Shown piece after piece: positions 4,360 to 10,583 of a stretch of DNA of 64,000 bases. The DNA is taken from the NCBI GenBank assembly GCA_030427885.1, contig JAUICM010000006.1, positions 124,001 to 188,000 of the forward strand, read 5' to 3'. The notes under the pieces are model-generated. The model was given only the letters and a program-made list of their open reading frames with translations. It had not been told where the DNA came from and made no database searches. The stretch's first letter is position 1. Every line of letters starts with the position of its first letter. The position numbers and the translations under genes are program-made. This DNA comes from Rhodothermia bacterium. Lineage in GTDB: Bacteria > Bacteroidota > Rhodothermia > Balneolales > Balneolaceae.

Positions 4360-5493
4360 ATGAATACACAGATCACTCTCCTTTTTTTAACTCTGGTTGT
4401 ACTTACAGGCTGTACTGAAAACAAAGCACAAAAGAAGAATGCAGCAACTGATTTCGATCCAGAAAAAATCACTGTTGAGATCGAGGTTATGGAGTTCGAG
4501 CCAACACCGGAAGGAGAACCGGCTTTCTATTCAGTGTCGGATTTAAGAGTGGATAATGAAAATAATATCTACCTGTTCGATCCACAGCTTATGAAGATCA
4601 AAGTGTTTAATTCTGAAGGTGAACAACTGGTTGAGTTTGGCAAAGAAGGTAAAGGTCCGGGTGAATATGAAAGACCCCGTTCCTTTTATCTTAATAAGAA
4701 GAATGGAGATTTAATGATCTTCGACAGAAATGCGGCACGCTTAACCCGATTCAATAAGGAGGGGGAAGTAAAAGAGCTGATACCAACCGAAGTAATTAAA
4801 GTGATGCCTAAATTCTTACGGGATGGGGACAGAAATATAGTTATAAACCCAAGTTTTGATAGTGATACTCTTGCGATGATAGCGGATGACTCATTCAATC
4901 CGATTTCTGAATTTTTGTCTACCAGTGAATACGGTGAAGGTTTGGAGAAAATTCAAAGAGCGATAAACATATCCTCCGGCAGTGCATTAGCTTATAACGA
5001 TCACTTCTATTTTGCCCCGGTGGTGTACTCAGGCGAGATCTATGATTATGTGTTCGATCCCGGTTTGAATAACTATTTACTGAACAGAAAGATAGTGAGT
5101 ACGCCGGTTGATCAGCCATTTGAGGTGCTATCAAATAACAGTAAACGACAAGCAAGTGTGCGTTTCTTCAGTCCGGAAGGGGAACTCTCAGTATTGTTTT
5201 TATCTGGAAGTAATGGTTTGTATAAATATGAAGATGATATCTTCCACTTCGTAGGGAGAGAAGAGGGAAACAAACGGATATTTGGGGTGGAATTGTTTGA
5301 TGAACAATGGAATTATATCGGATTTAAGGAGATCAGATCTATTGAACTTGATATCAATGATGAAGATGCTCCGCAACGAATATCTTTTGTAATAGAGGAT
5401 ATAGATCGGAATGGGATTTTCTATGGCCGGCAACGGAATGAATACGGAGACTGGCAGGTGATAAAAATGAATATTGATACTTCAAATCTGTAA
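4360..5493 (+). CDS. Six-bladed beta-propeller lipoprotein (propeller 1)
   Basis: A 377-residue lipoprotein with lipobox LTGC (Cys18). The rest is a repetitive beta-rich fold with blade-like units (VDNENNIYLFDPQLMKIKVFNSEG) and the family motif GKGPGEY at about 97-103, the hallmark of the Bacteroidota six-bladed beta-propeller (NHL-like, DUF5128/BF3164-type) proteins. No catalytic motif is visible, so a binding or scaffold role at the envelope is likely but inferred. It is the first of three tandem plus-strand propeller genes. Only 9 bp separate it from the next, so the two are probably co-transcribed. The gap of about 195 bp upstream is shared with the divergent M16 gene and should hold the promoter. 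Confidence 0.85.
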   Translation: MNTQITLLFLTLVVLTGCTENKAQKKNAATDFDPEKITVEIEVMEFEPTPEGEPAFYSVSDLRVDNENNIYLFDPQLMKIKVFNSEGEQLVEFGKEGKGPGEYERPRSFYLNKKNGDLMIFDRNAARLTRFNKEGEVKELIPTEVIKVMPKFLRDGDRNIVINPSFDSDTLAMIADDSFNPISEFLSTSEYGEGLEKIQRAINISSGSALAYNDHFYFAPVVYSGEIYDYVFDPGLNNYLLNRKIVSTPVDQPFEVLSNNSKRQASVRFFSPEGELSVLFLSGSNGLYKYEDDIFHFVGREEGNKRIFGVELFDEQWNYIGFKEIRSIELDINDEDAPQRISFVIEDIDRNGIFYGRQRNEYGDWQVIKMNIDTSNL

Positions 5494-5502
5494 ACTGCAT
5501 TA

Positions 5503-6765
5503 ATGCATAGATACTTTCTGTTAAATGTTCTGTTAGTCTTTCTTCTGATTCAGTGTTCCAAAGAACCAGAACCGGAAAATTTGGCTCCTGAAATACAAAA
5601 AGAAGAAACAAAACAATCAGAGTTACCGGAAGTGCTTGAACCAATATCCATTCTGGATGAAATTCCGGAGCATATTCAGAAAATCGAAAATGTGACCATT
5701 TTTCCCGGAGATACGGAACCTACTCATACCATAGAACTGATCTCCGAACAAACCTTTGGAAGTACAGAGGAGATCTACATAGCACATATACTAGGGGCTG
5801 AGGAAGATGATAATGGCAGAGTGGTTGTATGGGGCGCAGATACAAATTACGAACAGATCCTGAACGTATTTAATGCTGATGGAAGCTTTTATAAACAATT
5901 GGGAAGAAGGGGAAGGGGCCCGGGTGAATATGGGCCAGTGGTAGATTTATTGGTAAAATCCGGAAAAATATATGTAAGTGATCATACCAGTAAGCGTTTA
6001 AATGAATATTCTGTAAAAGATTATTCCATTTTACGTTCAATTCTGCTGGAGACCTGGGAGAGTAAAGATGATTTCAGGTTCGGTTATGCTGAACCACTAA
6101 GTGACGGTAATTATTTAGTTTATTTTTTGGACTCACCTTCTAAGTTTGGAAAGCTCGAGATCAGGATACAGGTAATGGATGATAAAGGCACTGCGATGCC
6201 TTTTGAGCCACTCGTTTTTCCAGCTGGAATAAGGATCAAAGTAGGGGAATCTTTACGGCCAACAATGCCGGTAAATTTTACGGGTTCCACCGAATTGGCA
6301 GTGTCAGATGAAGATGAACTTTATGTTATATGGACCAGAGAGTTTTTGATCAGGAAATACGATTCTGAGGGACGATATGTATCATCGATCTATTATCCCA
6401 TTCAGGGGGCACCTTTTGACCTTGATGTGTATGTAAATTCAGGACCATTCACTCCCAATGCCCGGCTCATAGAAAAAGGATTTTCTGAGATGGATGAGGA
6501 ATTTCCGGAAACGTTCCCGGTGGTCCAAAGAATAAAGGTGGATGATGAAAACAGGATATGGTTGGCGGTGCCCAGAGGTGAGCGACAAGATATCTTTGAA
6601 TGGTGGATTCTCGAAGAATCTGGTGAATTGCTGGCTAAACTAGTACGACCAAAATATCCACATATATATGATATCAGAAACGGGCATTTGTACAGCAAAC
6701 AAATAAATGAAGAAACTGATGAGGAGTATGTGGTTAAGTACCGGATAGAGTTGAGGGAGCTTTAG
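5503..6765 (+). CDS. Six-bladed beta-propeller lipoprotein (propeller 2)
   Basis: A 420-residue exported protein. The N-terminus is a signal peptide ending at Cys18 (LLIQC); Gln at -1 is unusual for a lipobox, but the Ser/Lys/Glu/Pro-rich linker that follows (about 19-60) is typical of lipoproteins. The propeller motif GRGPGEY is at about 137-143, preceded by a blade ending NVFNADGSFYKQLG. It is longer than its neighbours because of the acidic N-terminal linker. It sits 9 bp after propeller 1 and 54 bp before propeller 3; that second gap has a small hairpin. Divergent in sequence from propeller 1 outside the motif, so an old duplication. No function can be read beyond a likely binding surface. 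Confidence 0.83.
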   Translation: MHRYFLLNVLLVFLLIQCSKEPEPENLAPEIQKEETKQSELPEVLEPISILDEIPEHIQKIENVTIFPGDTEPTHTIELISEQTFGSTEEIYIAHILGAEEDDNGRVVVWGADTNYEQILNVFNADGSFYKQLGRRGRGPGEYGPVVDLLVKSGKIYVSDHTSKRLNEYSVKDYSILRSILLETWESKDDFRFGYAEPLSDGNYLVYFLDSPSKFGKLEIRIQVMDDKGTAMPFEPLVFPAGIRIKVGESLRPTMPVNFTGSTELAVSDEDELYVIWTREFLIRKYDSEGRYVSSIYYPIQGAPFDLDVYVNSGPFTPNARLIEKGFSEMDEEFPETFPVVQRIKVDDENRIWLAVPRGERQDIFEWWILEESGELLAKLVRPKYPHIYDIRNGHLYSKQINEETDEEYVVKYRIELREL

Positions 6766-6779
6766 CCACTATATTACTC

Positions 6780-6800
6780 CTCGTTCCTATGTGACGAGAT
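6780..6800. repeat. Short hairpin motif shared with the 10.85 kb repeat
   Basis: The gap between propellers 2 and 3 holds CTCGT-TCCTATGTG-ACGAG (5-bp stem). The 16 bases TCCTATGTGACGAGAT (6785-6800) recur with two changes as ACCTACGTGACGAGAT at 10846-10861, downstream of propeller 4. This looks like a remnant of the same dispersed palindromic repeat. It is followed by a run of A, not T, so it is not a convincing plus-strand terminator. Confidence 0.4.
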
Positions 6801-6819
6801 AAAAAAAATTCAAGCCTTA

Positions 6820-7971
6820 ATGTTTAAAAAAATCCACTATTTAGTTTTACTGATCCTGATTTTTGTAATTCCCTTCTGTGCGGAAAAAACCAGGGGTGTC
6901 TCAGGAAATGATGGGCCTTCTGTCAAAGAGTTGAACGAGTATCAGGTTCTGGAGGTCGATCAGGATCTGATACTCGGATTACCAGTACGTCTAAAGTTTA
7001 ACACAAACAAACGGGAACTATTCGTTCAGGATCTGGCAAACTGGAGTGTGATCAGTATCGACAGTACAGGAAAAATGGCAGGCAAATTTGGAAGGAGGGG
7101 CAGGGGACCTGGAGAGATTCAACGACTGGATGATTTCTTTTTTACAAATGAGCATCTTTATTTAGTGGATGGAGCCCAATTCCTGATCCATAAGTACAGC
7201 CTCGAAAACGGGGAACACCTCTCGTCTCTGAATTACGGTGATATACTGATGAAAATGGAGGGCCGGGAAAATAATCGTGCTTCATTAATACCAAAGCTTC
7301 CATTGATAGATAATAACAATCAGCCTTTTGTTACACTGAACGGGGAGGTACTTATCCCGTTCGGTTCGGGTGGAAAATATTTGTATCAGTTAACTGACTG
7401 GGAAGGAAATAAACTGGCGAATATTGCAGAGATGCCGCTTAACTGTAGTGCAACTGAAGAAGAAGTCAGGAAAGCTTTGAAAGAAAGAGTAGTACCGGCT
7501 TCGGATGAGTGCCTTACTTTTCCTGTACACGATCATTCCAATCCTGACGAATTGTATATAGTGTATAGCGCTGTTCCGAAAATAGAGAAGTACAGTTTAT
7601 CCGGAGAAAAACTGTGGACGAAATTGATCCCGAAAATGCCAGAGATGGATTCACTAATGATCGATCTGGAAGAAGTGGTAAGGAGCGATCCGGATAGGCC
7701 GGTTTCACATCTGACTGTCAGAAAGTACATTTCTGGACGGAGCGGAAACGAGGGAGATTTGTACCTTCTTACCTATAACAATCTCATCACTCCGGAAACT
7801 CCAGTGAGGCCTGTCTGGATACACCATTTTGATAAAAACGGGAAATTGATTGAGAGACTTAAAATTAAGTCAGAGCAAGACCTGAATTATTATCCCGGAA
7901 TAGATTTCGTTGAGAATAGAATGTATATGCCGGTATTCAGAGATATTGAGATTCGCAGTTATAGTTTTTGA
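6820..7971 (+). CDS. Six-bladed beta-propeller lipoprotein (propeller 3)
   Basis: A 383-residue protein with a hydrophobic signal ending at Cys20 (VIPFC), probably lipid-anchored though the lipobox is loose. The blade motif GRGPGEI is at about 94-100, preceded by VISIDSTGKMAGKFGR. Beta-rich repeats follow to the end (FDKNGKLIERLKI near the C-terminus). Two internal cysteines (PLNCSATEEE and ASDECLTF), about 30 residues apart, could form a disulfide. It ends the first run of propeller genes; about 270 bp of non-coding DNA follows before the AraC-type gene. Expected to sit in the periplasm or at the outer membrane. Ligand unknown. Confidence 0.83.
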   Translation: MFKKIHYLVLLILIFVIPFCAEKTRGVSGNDGPSVKELNEYQVLEVDQDLILGLPVRLKFNTNKRELFVQDLANWSVISIDSTGKMAGKFGRRGRGPGEIQRLDDFFFTNEHLYLVDGAQFLIHKYSLENGEHLSSLNYGDILMKMEGRENNRASLIPKLPLIDNNNQPFVTLNGEVLIPFGSGGKYLYQLTDWEGNKLANIAEMPLNCSATEEEVRKALKERVVPASDECLTFPVHDHSNPDELYIVYSAVPKIEKYSLSGEKLWTKLIPKMPEMDSLMIDLEEVVRSDPDRPVSHLTVRKYISGRSGNEGDLYLLTYNNLITPETPVRPVWIHHFDKNGKLIERLKIKSEQDLNYYPGIDFVENRMYMPVFRDIEIRSYSF

Positions 7972-8244: not shown

Positions 8245-8577
8245 ATGAAAGAGATTGAGCTGGCATTGGATGTGTTGGTGGAGAATATCACCTCCATACA
8301 TACGGTGGCGGAATGGGCGGAAGAAATGGGCTACGAGTCCGAAAAATATTTTACCCGCAAAATAAGGGCCCATTATAAAAAGAGTCCCTATAAGATCATT
8401 GTGGAAAAAAGGGTGCAAAGAGTTAAGGAAGAGCTAAAGAATTCCCCCGAAGAAATTCTTTTTTCTATCGCCCTTGATCTCGGGTTTTGTGATAACAATG
8501 CTTTGTACAAGTTTATTAAACGCCATACGGGTAAAACACACAGCCAGTTGAAATGGGAGAGTGAAATGGGAGAGTGA
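8245..8577 (+). CDS. Stand-alone AraC-type helix-turn-helix DNA-binding protein
   Basis: A 110-residue protein that is almost only an AraC/XylS DNA-binding domain. The first HTH is VAEWAEEMGYESEKYFTRKI; the long linker helix follows (SPYKIIVEKRVQRVKEEL), then the second HTH, FSIALDLGFCDNNALYKFIK, and the family end motif HTGKTHSQLK. There is no ligand-binding or receiver domain, as in many small Bacteroidota AraC-type regulators. The last seven residues (WESEMGE) and the stop are encoded by the first two copies of a 13-bp tandem repeat, so the natural C-terminus has been overwritten by repeat sequence. It lies between propeller 3 and the MauE-like gene and is the obvious local regulator, but its targets are inferred. 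Confidence 0.82.
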   Translation: MKEIELALDVLVENITSIHTVAEWAEEMGYESEKYFTRKIRAHYKKSPYKIIVEKRVQRVKEELKNSPEEILFSIALDLGFCDNNALYKFIKRHTGKTHSQLKWESEMGE

Positions 8578-8653
8578 AATGGGAGAGTGAAATGGGAGAG
8601 TGAAATGGGAGAGTGAAATGGGAGAGTGAAATGGGAGAGTGAAATGGGAGAGT
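8550..8653 (+). repeat. Eight perfect 13-bp tandem repeats
   Basis: The unit GAAATGGGAGAGT occurs eight times head to tail with no mismatch, then GAAAATTTTT. The first two copies lie inside the 3' end of the AraC-type gene. Thirteen is not a multiple of three, so each copy shifts frame, and a TGA arises across the unit junction. Each unit holds ATG GGA GAG TGA (a Met-Gly-Glu mini-ORF) with a GGGAG Shine-Dalgarno-like run 6-7 nt before the next ATG. Perfect identity points to recent slippage expansion. Copy number would change the spacing to the next gene but not the AraC product. Confidence 0.97.
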
Positions 8654-8738
8654 GAAAATTTTTCTCTTTTAACTTTTAAAAAATAAATTTATTAAAAATA
8701 TATCACATATATGTATGTATCTGTAAAAAAATGTTTTG

Positions 8739-9065
8739 ATGAACCAGTTAGGAGAATGGAAACCTCAAACGGAGAATTTAAAGTTAATGTTTAGAGATTT
8801 AGTCAAATGGACGCTTTTACTTTCGCTTATTAGTGCAGCAATTATAAAAATAGTAAATCCCCCTTTGTTTCTTCCTTATTTTAGTGAAATACCGATAACC
8901 TCGGAGCTTTCTATATACTTTTCTTTGATTTTCTTTAGTGGATTTCAAATTCTGATTACAATTCTCGCTTTAATTCCAAGATTCTCGAATAAAGTTTATA
9001 AACCAATATTTATGACATTCACAGTATTAAGTGTGTTAAGCCTGAATGCACTTTTTTTGGGGTAG
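8739..9065 (+). CDS. MauE/DoxX-like membrane protein, N-terminal part before a frameshift
   Basis: This frame gives about 108 residues (ATG 8739; a TTG lies just before at 8736). It has three hydrophobic segments: VKWTLLLSLISAAIIKIV (followed by NPPLFLPYFSEIP), SIYFSLIFFSGFQILITILAL, and FMTFTVLSVLSLNALFLG. The helix-KxxNP-helix layout matches the first three helices of MauE/DoxX-family membrane proteins, which partner with quinone- or thiol-redox proteins. The frame stops at TAG 9063, right after a C-T7-G4 run, and the missing fourth helix is found in the -1 frame directly downstream. The protein is therefore short only because of this shift. It lies between the 13-bp repeats and the Cys-rich exported protein. 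Assignment rests on topology and pattern, not on a search. Confidence 0.6.
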   Translation: MNQLGEWKPQTENLKLMFRDLVKWTLLLSLISAAIIKIVNPPLFLPYFSEIPITSELSIYFSLIFFSGFQILITILALIPRFSNKVYKPIFMTFTVLSVLSLNALFLG

Positions 9066-9202
9066 AAGTGAAAACAGAGTGTTTAGGATGGGTTACACAG
9101 GAGCAAAACTTTCAAATTCTATCATTAAAGAATATTGGTATAACATTATGTGCTTTATTTCTAATGTATAGCAATAAAAATCCAATCAATAACAAAACAT
9201 AA
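9056..9202 (+). pseudogene. C-terminal part of the MauE/DoxX-like protein in the -1 frame
   Basis: Read in the -1 frame, the T7G4 run continues as FFGVEVKTECLGWVTQEQ and then a fourth hydrophobic helix, ILSLKNIGITLCALFLMY, ending at TAA 9200-9202, 3 bp before the GTG of the next frame. The ECLGW site falls where MauE/DoxX proteins carry a Cys-containing motif before the last helix. Joining both parts gives about 153 residues, the usual family size. The frame-0 codons CTT TTT TTG GGG TAG contain a T TTT TTG heptamer, a legal -1 slippery site (HIV-1 uses U UUU UUA). The break may be programmed frameshifting, homopolymer phase variation, a true inactivation or a sequencing error; the sequence alone cannot decide. 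Confidence 0.6.
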
Positions 9203-9214
9203 AAAGTGAGAATC

Positions 9215-9490
9215 ATGAATAAAAGAATACGCAAAATGGGAACTTTTTTTTGTGCGATGCTTATAGTTTCTTTTTTTAGCATTGGCTCCGTACAGGAAAT
9301 ATCCCCAAATACAAACGAAATCAGTTTAACAACAGAGTTGAACGAATCTAGTTCATTGCTAATTGTCGACCCTCCTGAGTGTGTTTGCGCAGAAAGGAAG
9401 GGATGGTTATTTGGAATGTGTAAAGGGGCTACAACTCGGGTATGTGAAGGAGATACTGAGTGTAATGAAACCTGCGGTACTCCTGAATAA
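9215..9490 (+). CDS. Small exported protein with six cysteines
   Basis: A 91-residue protein if it starts at ATG 9215 (an in-frame GTG lies at 9206). The N-terminus has basic MNKRIRK, then a hydrophobic core (FFCAMLIVSFFSIGSV), a Sec signal peptide without a lipobox. The mature part has a Ser/Thr/Asn-rich spacer and a compact C-terminal domain with six Cys (PPECVC, GMCKG, RVCEG, ECNETCGTPE), an even number suited to three disulfides. No family recognised with certainty; it recalls the small Cys-bearing NVEALA-type exported proteins found next to propeller genes in Bacteroidota, but no NVEALA motif is seen. A weak hairpin terminator follows, so it may be the last gene of the AraC/MauE-like transcript. 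Confidence 0.7.
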   Translation: MNKRIRKMGTFFCAMLIVSFFSIGSVQEISPNTNEISLTTELNESSSLLIVDPPECVCAERKGWLFGMCKGATTRVCEGDTECNETCGTPE

Positions 9491-9495
9491 ATTAT

Positions 9496-9531
9496 AAAAA
9501 GGTGATCTTTAATCTAAGGGTCACTTTTTTT
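9496..9531 (+). terminator. Probable Rho-independent terminator after the Cys-rich gene
   Basis: AAAAGGTGA pairs with TCACTTTTTTT around an intervening loop (a GTGA/TCAC core extended by A-T pairs, one bulge), ending in a run of seven T. It lies 6 bp after the stop of the Cys-rich gene and 20 bp before propeller 4, so propeller 4 may have its own promoter or be read by partial read-through. Confidence 0.5.
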
Positions 9532-9551
9532 AAAAATTTGAGTAAAAGAGT

Positions 9552-10583
9552 ATGTATTTAAAAAAGGTTGTATTCCTTTCTGTTATTTCTTTGTTCTCTA
9601 ATAATTTCTCCTTTGCACAGCTAGATGGGCTGATCTATAATCCTTATGATCTTTGGATTGTTGACGCTGATACAGTATTAGTAAATGATATTGCTGATAA
9701 GCAGAATACACTTAAGTTATTCGATCTAAAGGATGAAGAATTAATTGCATCAGTAAGAAGCGGAAGAGGTCCGGGTGAGGTAAGTTCAATTGCTTATAAA
9801 AGAAGTACTTTATATTCAAATGGAGATATATTTATCTGGGATTCAGGACGTAAAAGGATGACCCGTTATACTTCTGAACTAGAATATAAAACAGATGTTC
9901 GTGGAGGTAAATTTCTTGGAAGTATATTTCAGGCTGCTTTGATCAACGACAGTACTTTACTTACGGTGGGAGTTGGGGAAGGGTTTTTTAAGGTATGGAG
10001 AATCAAAAATAATAGGGTTACTGAAAAATCTCTTTTGTGGAGCATTAGCGAAGGAGAGTATGAGGAATTATCGCCACTCATTAATTTCACCCTACTTCAA
10101 ACGCTATTTTTCGATAACTTTAATGGAATTTTATATATAAGCTTCGAATTTTCCTCAATGGTAATAGGAATTGAGGAAACTGGAATTGTATTTATAAATC
10201 AGGAGCCGGATAACATTCCTCTTCCCCCACCTGATGAGGAATCAGAAAGAAGCGGGCGTTATAGTTTGCCTGTTATGGGGAAGCATCCGGAGGGAGCACG
10301 TGATGTATCGGCAGGAGGTGATTTTGTATATGTACTGTTAAACGGCGAAAAAATCTCAAGAATGCAACAGTGGAGATATCTTGTGAATTTCGAAGCCTTG
10401 ATTGAGAAAGTATATCATGCAGAAAGGTTGCTAAAATACGATAGGTTTACAGGGGAATTTATAGGGGAGATAAATCTACCAATCCCGGCGAGGCAGGCCA
10501 AAGTTCAGGGGGATACAGTTTATTTATTGAACACGCTTGGCGATGAACCCATCATCCGTAAATATAAGTTGGACGAACTGTAG
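9552..10583 (+). CDS. Six-bladed beta-propeller exported protein (propeller 4)
   Basis: A 343-residue protein with a Sec signal peptide (cleavage likely after NNFSFA, before QLD). Unlike propellers 1-3 it has no Cys lipobox, so it is probably soluble in the periplasm or secreted. The hallmark GRGPGEV is at about 71-77, earlier than in its neighbours because the N-terminal linker is absent. Blade-like repeats follow (NGDIFIWDSGRKRMTRYTSE; LLKYDRFTGEFIGEI near the end). It follows the Cys-rich gene after a terminator-like hairpin and is followed by the palindrome-rich gap. It probably shares a role with the three upstream lipoproteins. Ligand unknown. Confidence 0.82.
   Translation: MYLKKVVFLSVISLFSNNFSFAQLDGLIYNPYDLWIVDADTVLVNDIADKQNTLKLFDLKDEELIASVRSGRGPGEVSSIAYKRSTLYSNGDIFIWDSGRKRMTRYTSELEYKTDVRGGKFLGSIFQAALINDSTLLTVGVGEGFFKVWRIKNNRVTEKSLLWSISEGEYEELSPLINFTLLQTLFFDNFNGILYISFEFSSMVIGIEETGIVFINQEPDNIPLPPPDEESERSGRYSLPVMGKHPEGARDVSAGGDFVYVLLNGEKISRMQQWRYLVNFEALIEKVYHAERLLKYDRFTGEFIGEINLPIPARQAKVQGDTVYLLNTLGDEPIIRKYKLDEL

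Follow-up and report, generated by a model that had tools for sequence, protein, structure and literature searches.

The window, the whole stretch of 64,000 nucleotides that we analyzed (positions 124,001 to 188,000 of contig JAUICM010000006.1 from a Rhodothermia bacterium of the family Balneolaceae), carries on its forward strand a small cassette in which one gene is broken. The cassette begins with a stand-alone gene for an AraC-type helix-turn-helix (HTH) protein (8245–8577; PF12833, 59.9 bits), which lies upstream of a mauE-like gene divided into two parts. The frame-0 part (8787–9065) consists of 92 codons and a TAG stop (9063–9065) and encodes three membrane helices, as judged by eye; the −1 frame part (9059–9202) adds 47 codons and a TAA stop (9200–9202). 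An intact gene for a small, Cys-rich peptide of the secreted type follows (9206–9490; start at GTG 9206 or ATG 9215), and an intact beta-propeller-like gene (9552–10583) with a weak, below-cut-off match to TolB_like closes the cassette. The peptide matched no Pfam or NCBIfam family, and scanning 8550–9560 for promoters and terminators returned nothing above shuffled sequence. A perfect 13-bp tandem array (8549–8657; 8.4 copies, 100% match), the sole such place in the genome, lies across the end of the AraC-type gene, covering its stop codon, and stops about 130 bp short of the ATG at 8787; changes in its copy number would alter spacing rather than the AraC-type product. Directly upstream of the cassette are three adjacent genes for 6-bladed beta-propellers (4360–7971), all three above the cut-off of PF17170.

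The split of the mauE-like gene is present in the assembled sequence, where positions 9051–9065 read CTT TTT TTG GGG TAG in frame 0. The change of frame falls in a T7G4 run (9052–9062; T7 at 9052–9058 and G4 at 9059–9062), which holds the heptamer T_TTT_TTG in the correct phase (9053–9059), as the sequence-only reading had proposed. Past the TAG the −1 frame stays open to the TAA at 9200–9202 and translates from the GGG at 9059 as GVEVKTECLGW...NNKT, a loop with one cysteine followed by a fourth hydrophobic helix (by eye). In the table of open reading frames (ORFs), frame 0 begins at a TTG at 8736 (109 codons), and alignment with a relative suggests that the ATG at 8787 is the likely start of the gene. 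Counted from this ATG, the frame-0 product is 92 residues long and the joined product 138, rather than the "usual ~153-residue size" given earlier; the relative's protein has 142 residues.

That relative is Balneola sp. EAC52 (metagenome-assembled contig NZQV01000016.1), in which the gene is intact in a single frame. Its MauE aligns with the window as two segments, each in a different frame (E 3.7e-32 and 4.7e-10), and the segment in the −1 frame corresponds to residues 90–140 of the protein (E 4.7e-10). Identity is 53 of 90 residues for the frame-0 part and 24 of 47 for the −1 part, and the −1 product aligns with the relative free of gaps across the junction. The continuation in the −1 frame therefore exceeds chance, given this match, the family score that only the joined reading attains (below) and the finding that the 141 nt of the −1 frame remained open in 0.9% of 20,000 mononucleotide shuffles. 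The relatives were to be aligned for a T8 run or an intact frame; the one Balneola gene has the intact frame, with neither a T homopolymer nor a slip site at the homologous position.

Such relatives are scarce. In the bacterial family, two of 92 genomes matched the first half, the window's own and one other (G025), and a class-wide search with the relative's MauE again found just two of 244 genomes, the window's own and that of Balneola. A search of 394 genomes of the phylum gave four matches, two of them new at an E-value of about 9e-4. Searches of the genome contigs recovered no relative with the first half and Balneola sp. EAC52 as the sole match with the peptide alignment. As this is the only intact close relative (two of 92 genomes, including the window's own), the ancestral state is drawn from a single comparison.

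The two halves belong to a single gene of the MauE type (PF07291), a family that we take to comprise MauE/DoxX-type membrane proteins. The joined reading scored 28.7 bits over profile positions 7–127, above the Pfam cut-off of 27 and close to the 30.7 bits of the relative's intact protein. On its own the first half, taken as the 109-codon frame that starts at 8736, scored 11 bits, and a Pfam scan of the second half gave no match. We thus reject the idea of two separate genes, since the halves cover separate parts of one intact protein of the relative and exceed the cut-off only when joined. This agrees in coordinates with the earlier claim of one MauE/DoxX-like gene split at T7G4 and adds to it the homology of both halves to one intact protein. 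NCBIfam gave nothing useful for either half or for the relative's MauE, and no solved structure matched the latter. An AlphaFold model from a three-row alignment was too poor for use (mean pLDDT 51), so the helices were counted by eye from hydrophobicity.

MauE-family genes are common in the bacterial family (87 of 89 genomes). A CxC-type motif between helices 3 and 4, [DENQ]C.C[FW]G, occurs in the second half of 25 of 30 loci of strong members from the same bacterial family; one of the remaining loci (L035) gave no usable frame and four others departed from the pattern. The window gene and its relative each carry a single cysteine, which we placed opposite the motif by eye; the CxC motif is a trait of the sampled members, not a Pfam criterion. 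The residues around this cysteine differ between the two proteins (ECLGW in the window, DCLRD in Balneola), so that ECLGW, earlier described as a site, is not conserved. The window genome's other MauE match (L001, 127 aa) was considered as a paralogue with the same break and is a different, intact protein.

The order mauE, Cys-rich peptide and propeller is common to the window and Balneola sp. EAC52. The two peptides are 57–63% identical, depending on the alignment, and the propeller-like proteins 62%. In Balneola sp. EAC52 the first two of these genes overlap by 4 nt, the stop of mauE lying over the start of the peptide gene. The −1 stop of the window gene ends three bases before GTG 9206, and the frame-0 stop is 140 bases away from it on the 5′ side; at that distance, any translational coupling between mauE and the peptide would be lost.

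Relatives of the propeller occur in 17 of the 244 genomes of the class, and mauE lies upstream of it at two of 20 loci, those of the window and Balneola sp. EAC52, a count with which a tblastn search of the other 19 loci with the relative's MauE agrees. These counts cover at most 1500 nt upstream, and two loci (L067 and L077) reach the contig end soon upstream, so that a mauE farther away would escape them. A Cys-rich peptide precedes the propeller at about half of the 20 loci by eye (tblastn at an E-value of 1e-3 or better backs three of 19), and a small AraC-type gene is present at about five, also by eye. Judged by these gene neighborhoods, MauE is an optional part of an AraC/Cys-rich peptide/propeller cassette.

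The cassette recurs (8245–10583 in the window and loci L058–L077) as an AraC-type HTH gene, a Cys-rich peptide gene, a propeller gene and an optional mauE, and the peptide sequences vary widely among loci. In Balneola sp. EAC52 it adjoins what we take to be an enoyl-CoA hydratase-type gene of a phenylacetate-degradation-like cluster. One further propeller (G022, L060) lies beside a similar hydratase-type gene, with no mauE or peptide visible upstream. In the portions of the literature retrieved on MauE with propellers and peptides in Bacteroidetes, and on MauE with disulfides, nothing concerned this gene. The cassette may merit a study of its own.

The conservation of the two halves bears on the age of the break. 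The proportion of changed nonsynonymous sites (pN) relative to Balneola sp. EAC52 was 0.226 before the junction (90 codons) and 0.281 after it (47 codons), similar to the neighboring peptide (0.245) and propeller (0.243) genes. Synonymous sites are far diverged, and the pN values therefore compare constraint over the whole time since the lineages split. The downstream part thus served as coding sequence for most of that time; its pN is near that of its neighbors, which leaves little time for decay, and comparison with the relative revealed no second lesion in it. Hence the break is recent, or it is bypassed, or it is an error.

We consider it probable that an ordinary, recent and tolerated one-base indel in the T run broke this optional mauE-type gene, and of the four options offered by the sequence-only reading (programmed frameshifting, phase variation, a fresh null mutation and a base-calling error) the fresh null mutation fits best. 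A change of one base in the length of the run would have put the gene out of frame, and the cell would now make, if anything, a 92-residue protein without the Cys loop and the fourth helix. Such a product suggests that the MauE function of the cassette is probably lost or weakened, although the first half, with its three helices, might still be partly functional. The optional nature of MauE in the cassette suggests, in turn, that the loss is tolerated. We infer that all three steps, a mutation in the organism, loss of function and tolerance of the loss, are probable. Taken alone, the case matters little, as it adds one entry to the genes disrupted at homopolymers.

An error in the T run during sequencing or assembly would leave the gene intact in the organism. 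The genome has a single assembly, and the similar conservation of both halves, without a second lesion, would be expected of an intact gene. Furthermore, the accessible part of the GeneTack survey expects singleton frameshifts validated by BLASTp to be mostly sequencing errors (PMC3711429), and for this reason we retain some weight for an error. However, errors in homopolymers are infrequent in this assembly. Of 35 A/T runs of seven or more in the window, 18 sit in intact ORFs, and ORFs of 80 aa or more span 94% of the window. We also surveyed homopolymers over 344 kb, made up of the window and fourteen 20-kb stretches that together sample 280 kb of the roughly 4.15 Mb. Of the 155 long runs in this set, 86 are embedded far inside long open frames. 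The survey flagged ten rows at eight sites, the mauE junction included, which were judged by frames and by eye (four sample sites from their translations, the remaining three, in the window, from the ORF table); the seven other sites resembled ordinary gene ends or noise. With no other convincing split gene among the 155 runs, a base-calling error is the less likely account, and we regard it as unlikely.

A real break could also be partly bypassed, by −1 slippage of the ribosome at T_TTT_TTG or by slippage of the polymerase on T7, to yield some full-length MauE. The gene would then be a "pseudo pseudogene" in the sense of a survey of transcriptional slippage (PMC1088944, as far as its available text goes). 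The correct phase of the heptamer, the gap-free alignment of the −1 product and a downstream half that keeps its frame are all consistent with a gene still expressed by slippage. Yet the slip site is absent from the relative, and no 3′ stimulator was found, the 100 bases from the stop (9063–9162) folding like their shuffles (z −0.15, for secondary structure free of pseudoknots). Five further in-frame copies of the heptamer are present in 48 other, intact genes of the window, among 100 heptamers of the X_XXY_YYZ type. In the parts consulted of a survey in E. coli, the most efficient motifs include H_HH.U_UU.Y, and U_UU.U_UU.G, named there for a eukaryotic system, falls outside that class (PMC4066793). 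The slippage survey, in its available text, centers on runs of nine A or T (PMC1088944), against seven T here, and deletions by transcription inside homopolymers are described in the excerpted portion of another study as rare in E. coli (PMC5574713). Programmed frameshifting is not conserved, since the Balneola gene is whole and lacks a T run where the two frames meet in the window; together with the ordinary folding and the recurrence of the heptamer in intact genes, this leaves programmed −1 frameshifting not supported. A low level of read-through at T7 may occur, but a bypass that restores some MauE strikes us as doubtful, less probable even than an error. The locus thus serves as a warning that, wherever such motifs are common, a slippery heptamer beside a stop should not be read as a sign of programmed frameshifting.

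A contingency switch, in which changes in the length of the T run switch MauE between on and off states within a population, would suit a run placed among the codons of a cell-envelope gene with a 13-bp array nearby as a sign of replication slippage, but it is very improbable, as runs of exactly T7 occur 14 times in the window, Balneola has none at the homologous place, no second allele appeared among the data compared (one genome of the genus) and phase variation found no positive support beyond the run itself. The portions of the literature retrieved on Balneola with homopolymers or phase variation held nothing on this gene. We would give equally little credence to an elaborate form of this switch, lineage-specific and acting through length change or low slippage on MauE and on the dose and oxidation of the peptide, with the 13-bp array as a second, spacing-type switch. 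If it were true, the amount and oxidation of the peptide would be affected because the mauE stop no longer overlaps the peptide start.

Set against known systems, the mauE-type gene resembles the methylamine utilization protein MauE (PF07291) in that the joined reading and the relative span nearly the whole profile and have several hydrophobic helices; it differs from the family in its broken frame. Like genes with programmed −1 frameshifting on X_XX.Y_YY.Z motifs (IS3 and IS1 elements and dnaX), it has a heptamer in the right phase before a stop. Unlike them, its arrangement is not conserved, no stimulator was found and the motif is no rarity in the window; in contrast to the IS3 and IS1 elements, moreover, the split gene lies outside any known mobile element. 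The split mauE also parallels the singleton frameshifted genes and pseudogenes of the GeneTack survey (PMC3711429), as far as its available text goes: the change of frame is backed by homology on both sides and is not shared by the relative, and the split mauE shows no notable difference from them.
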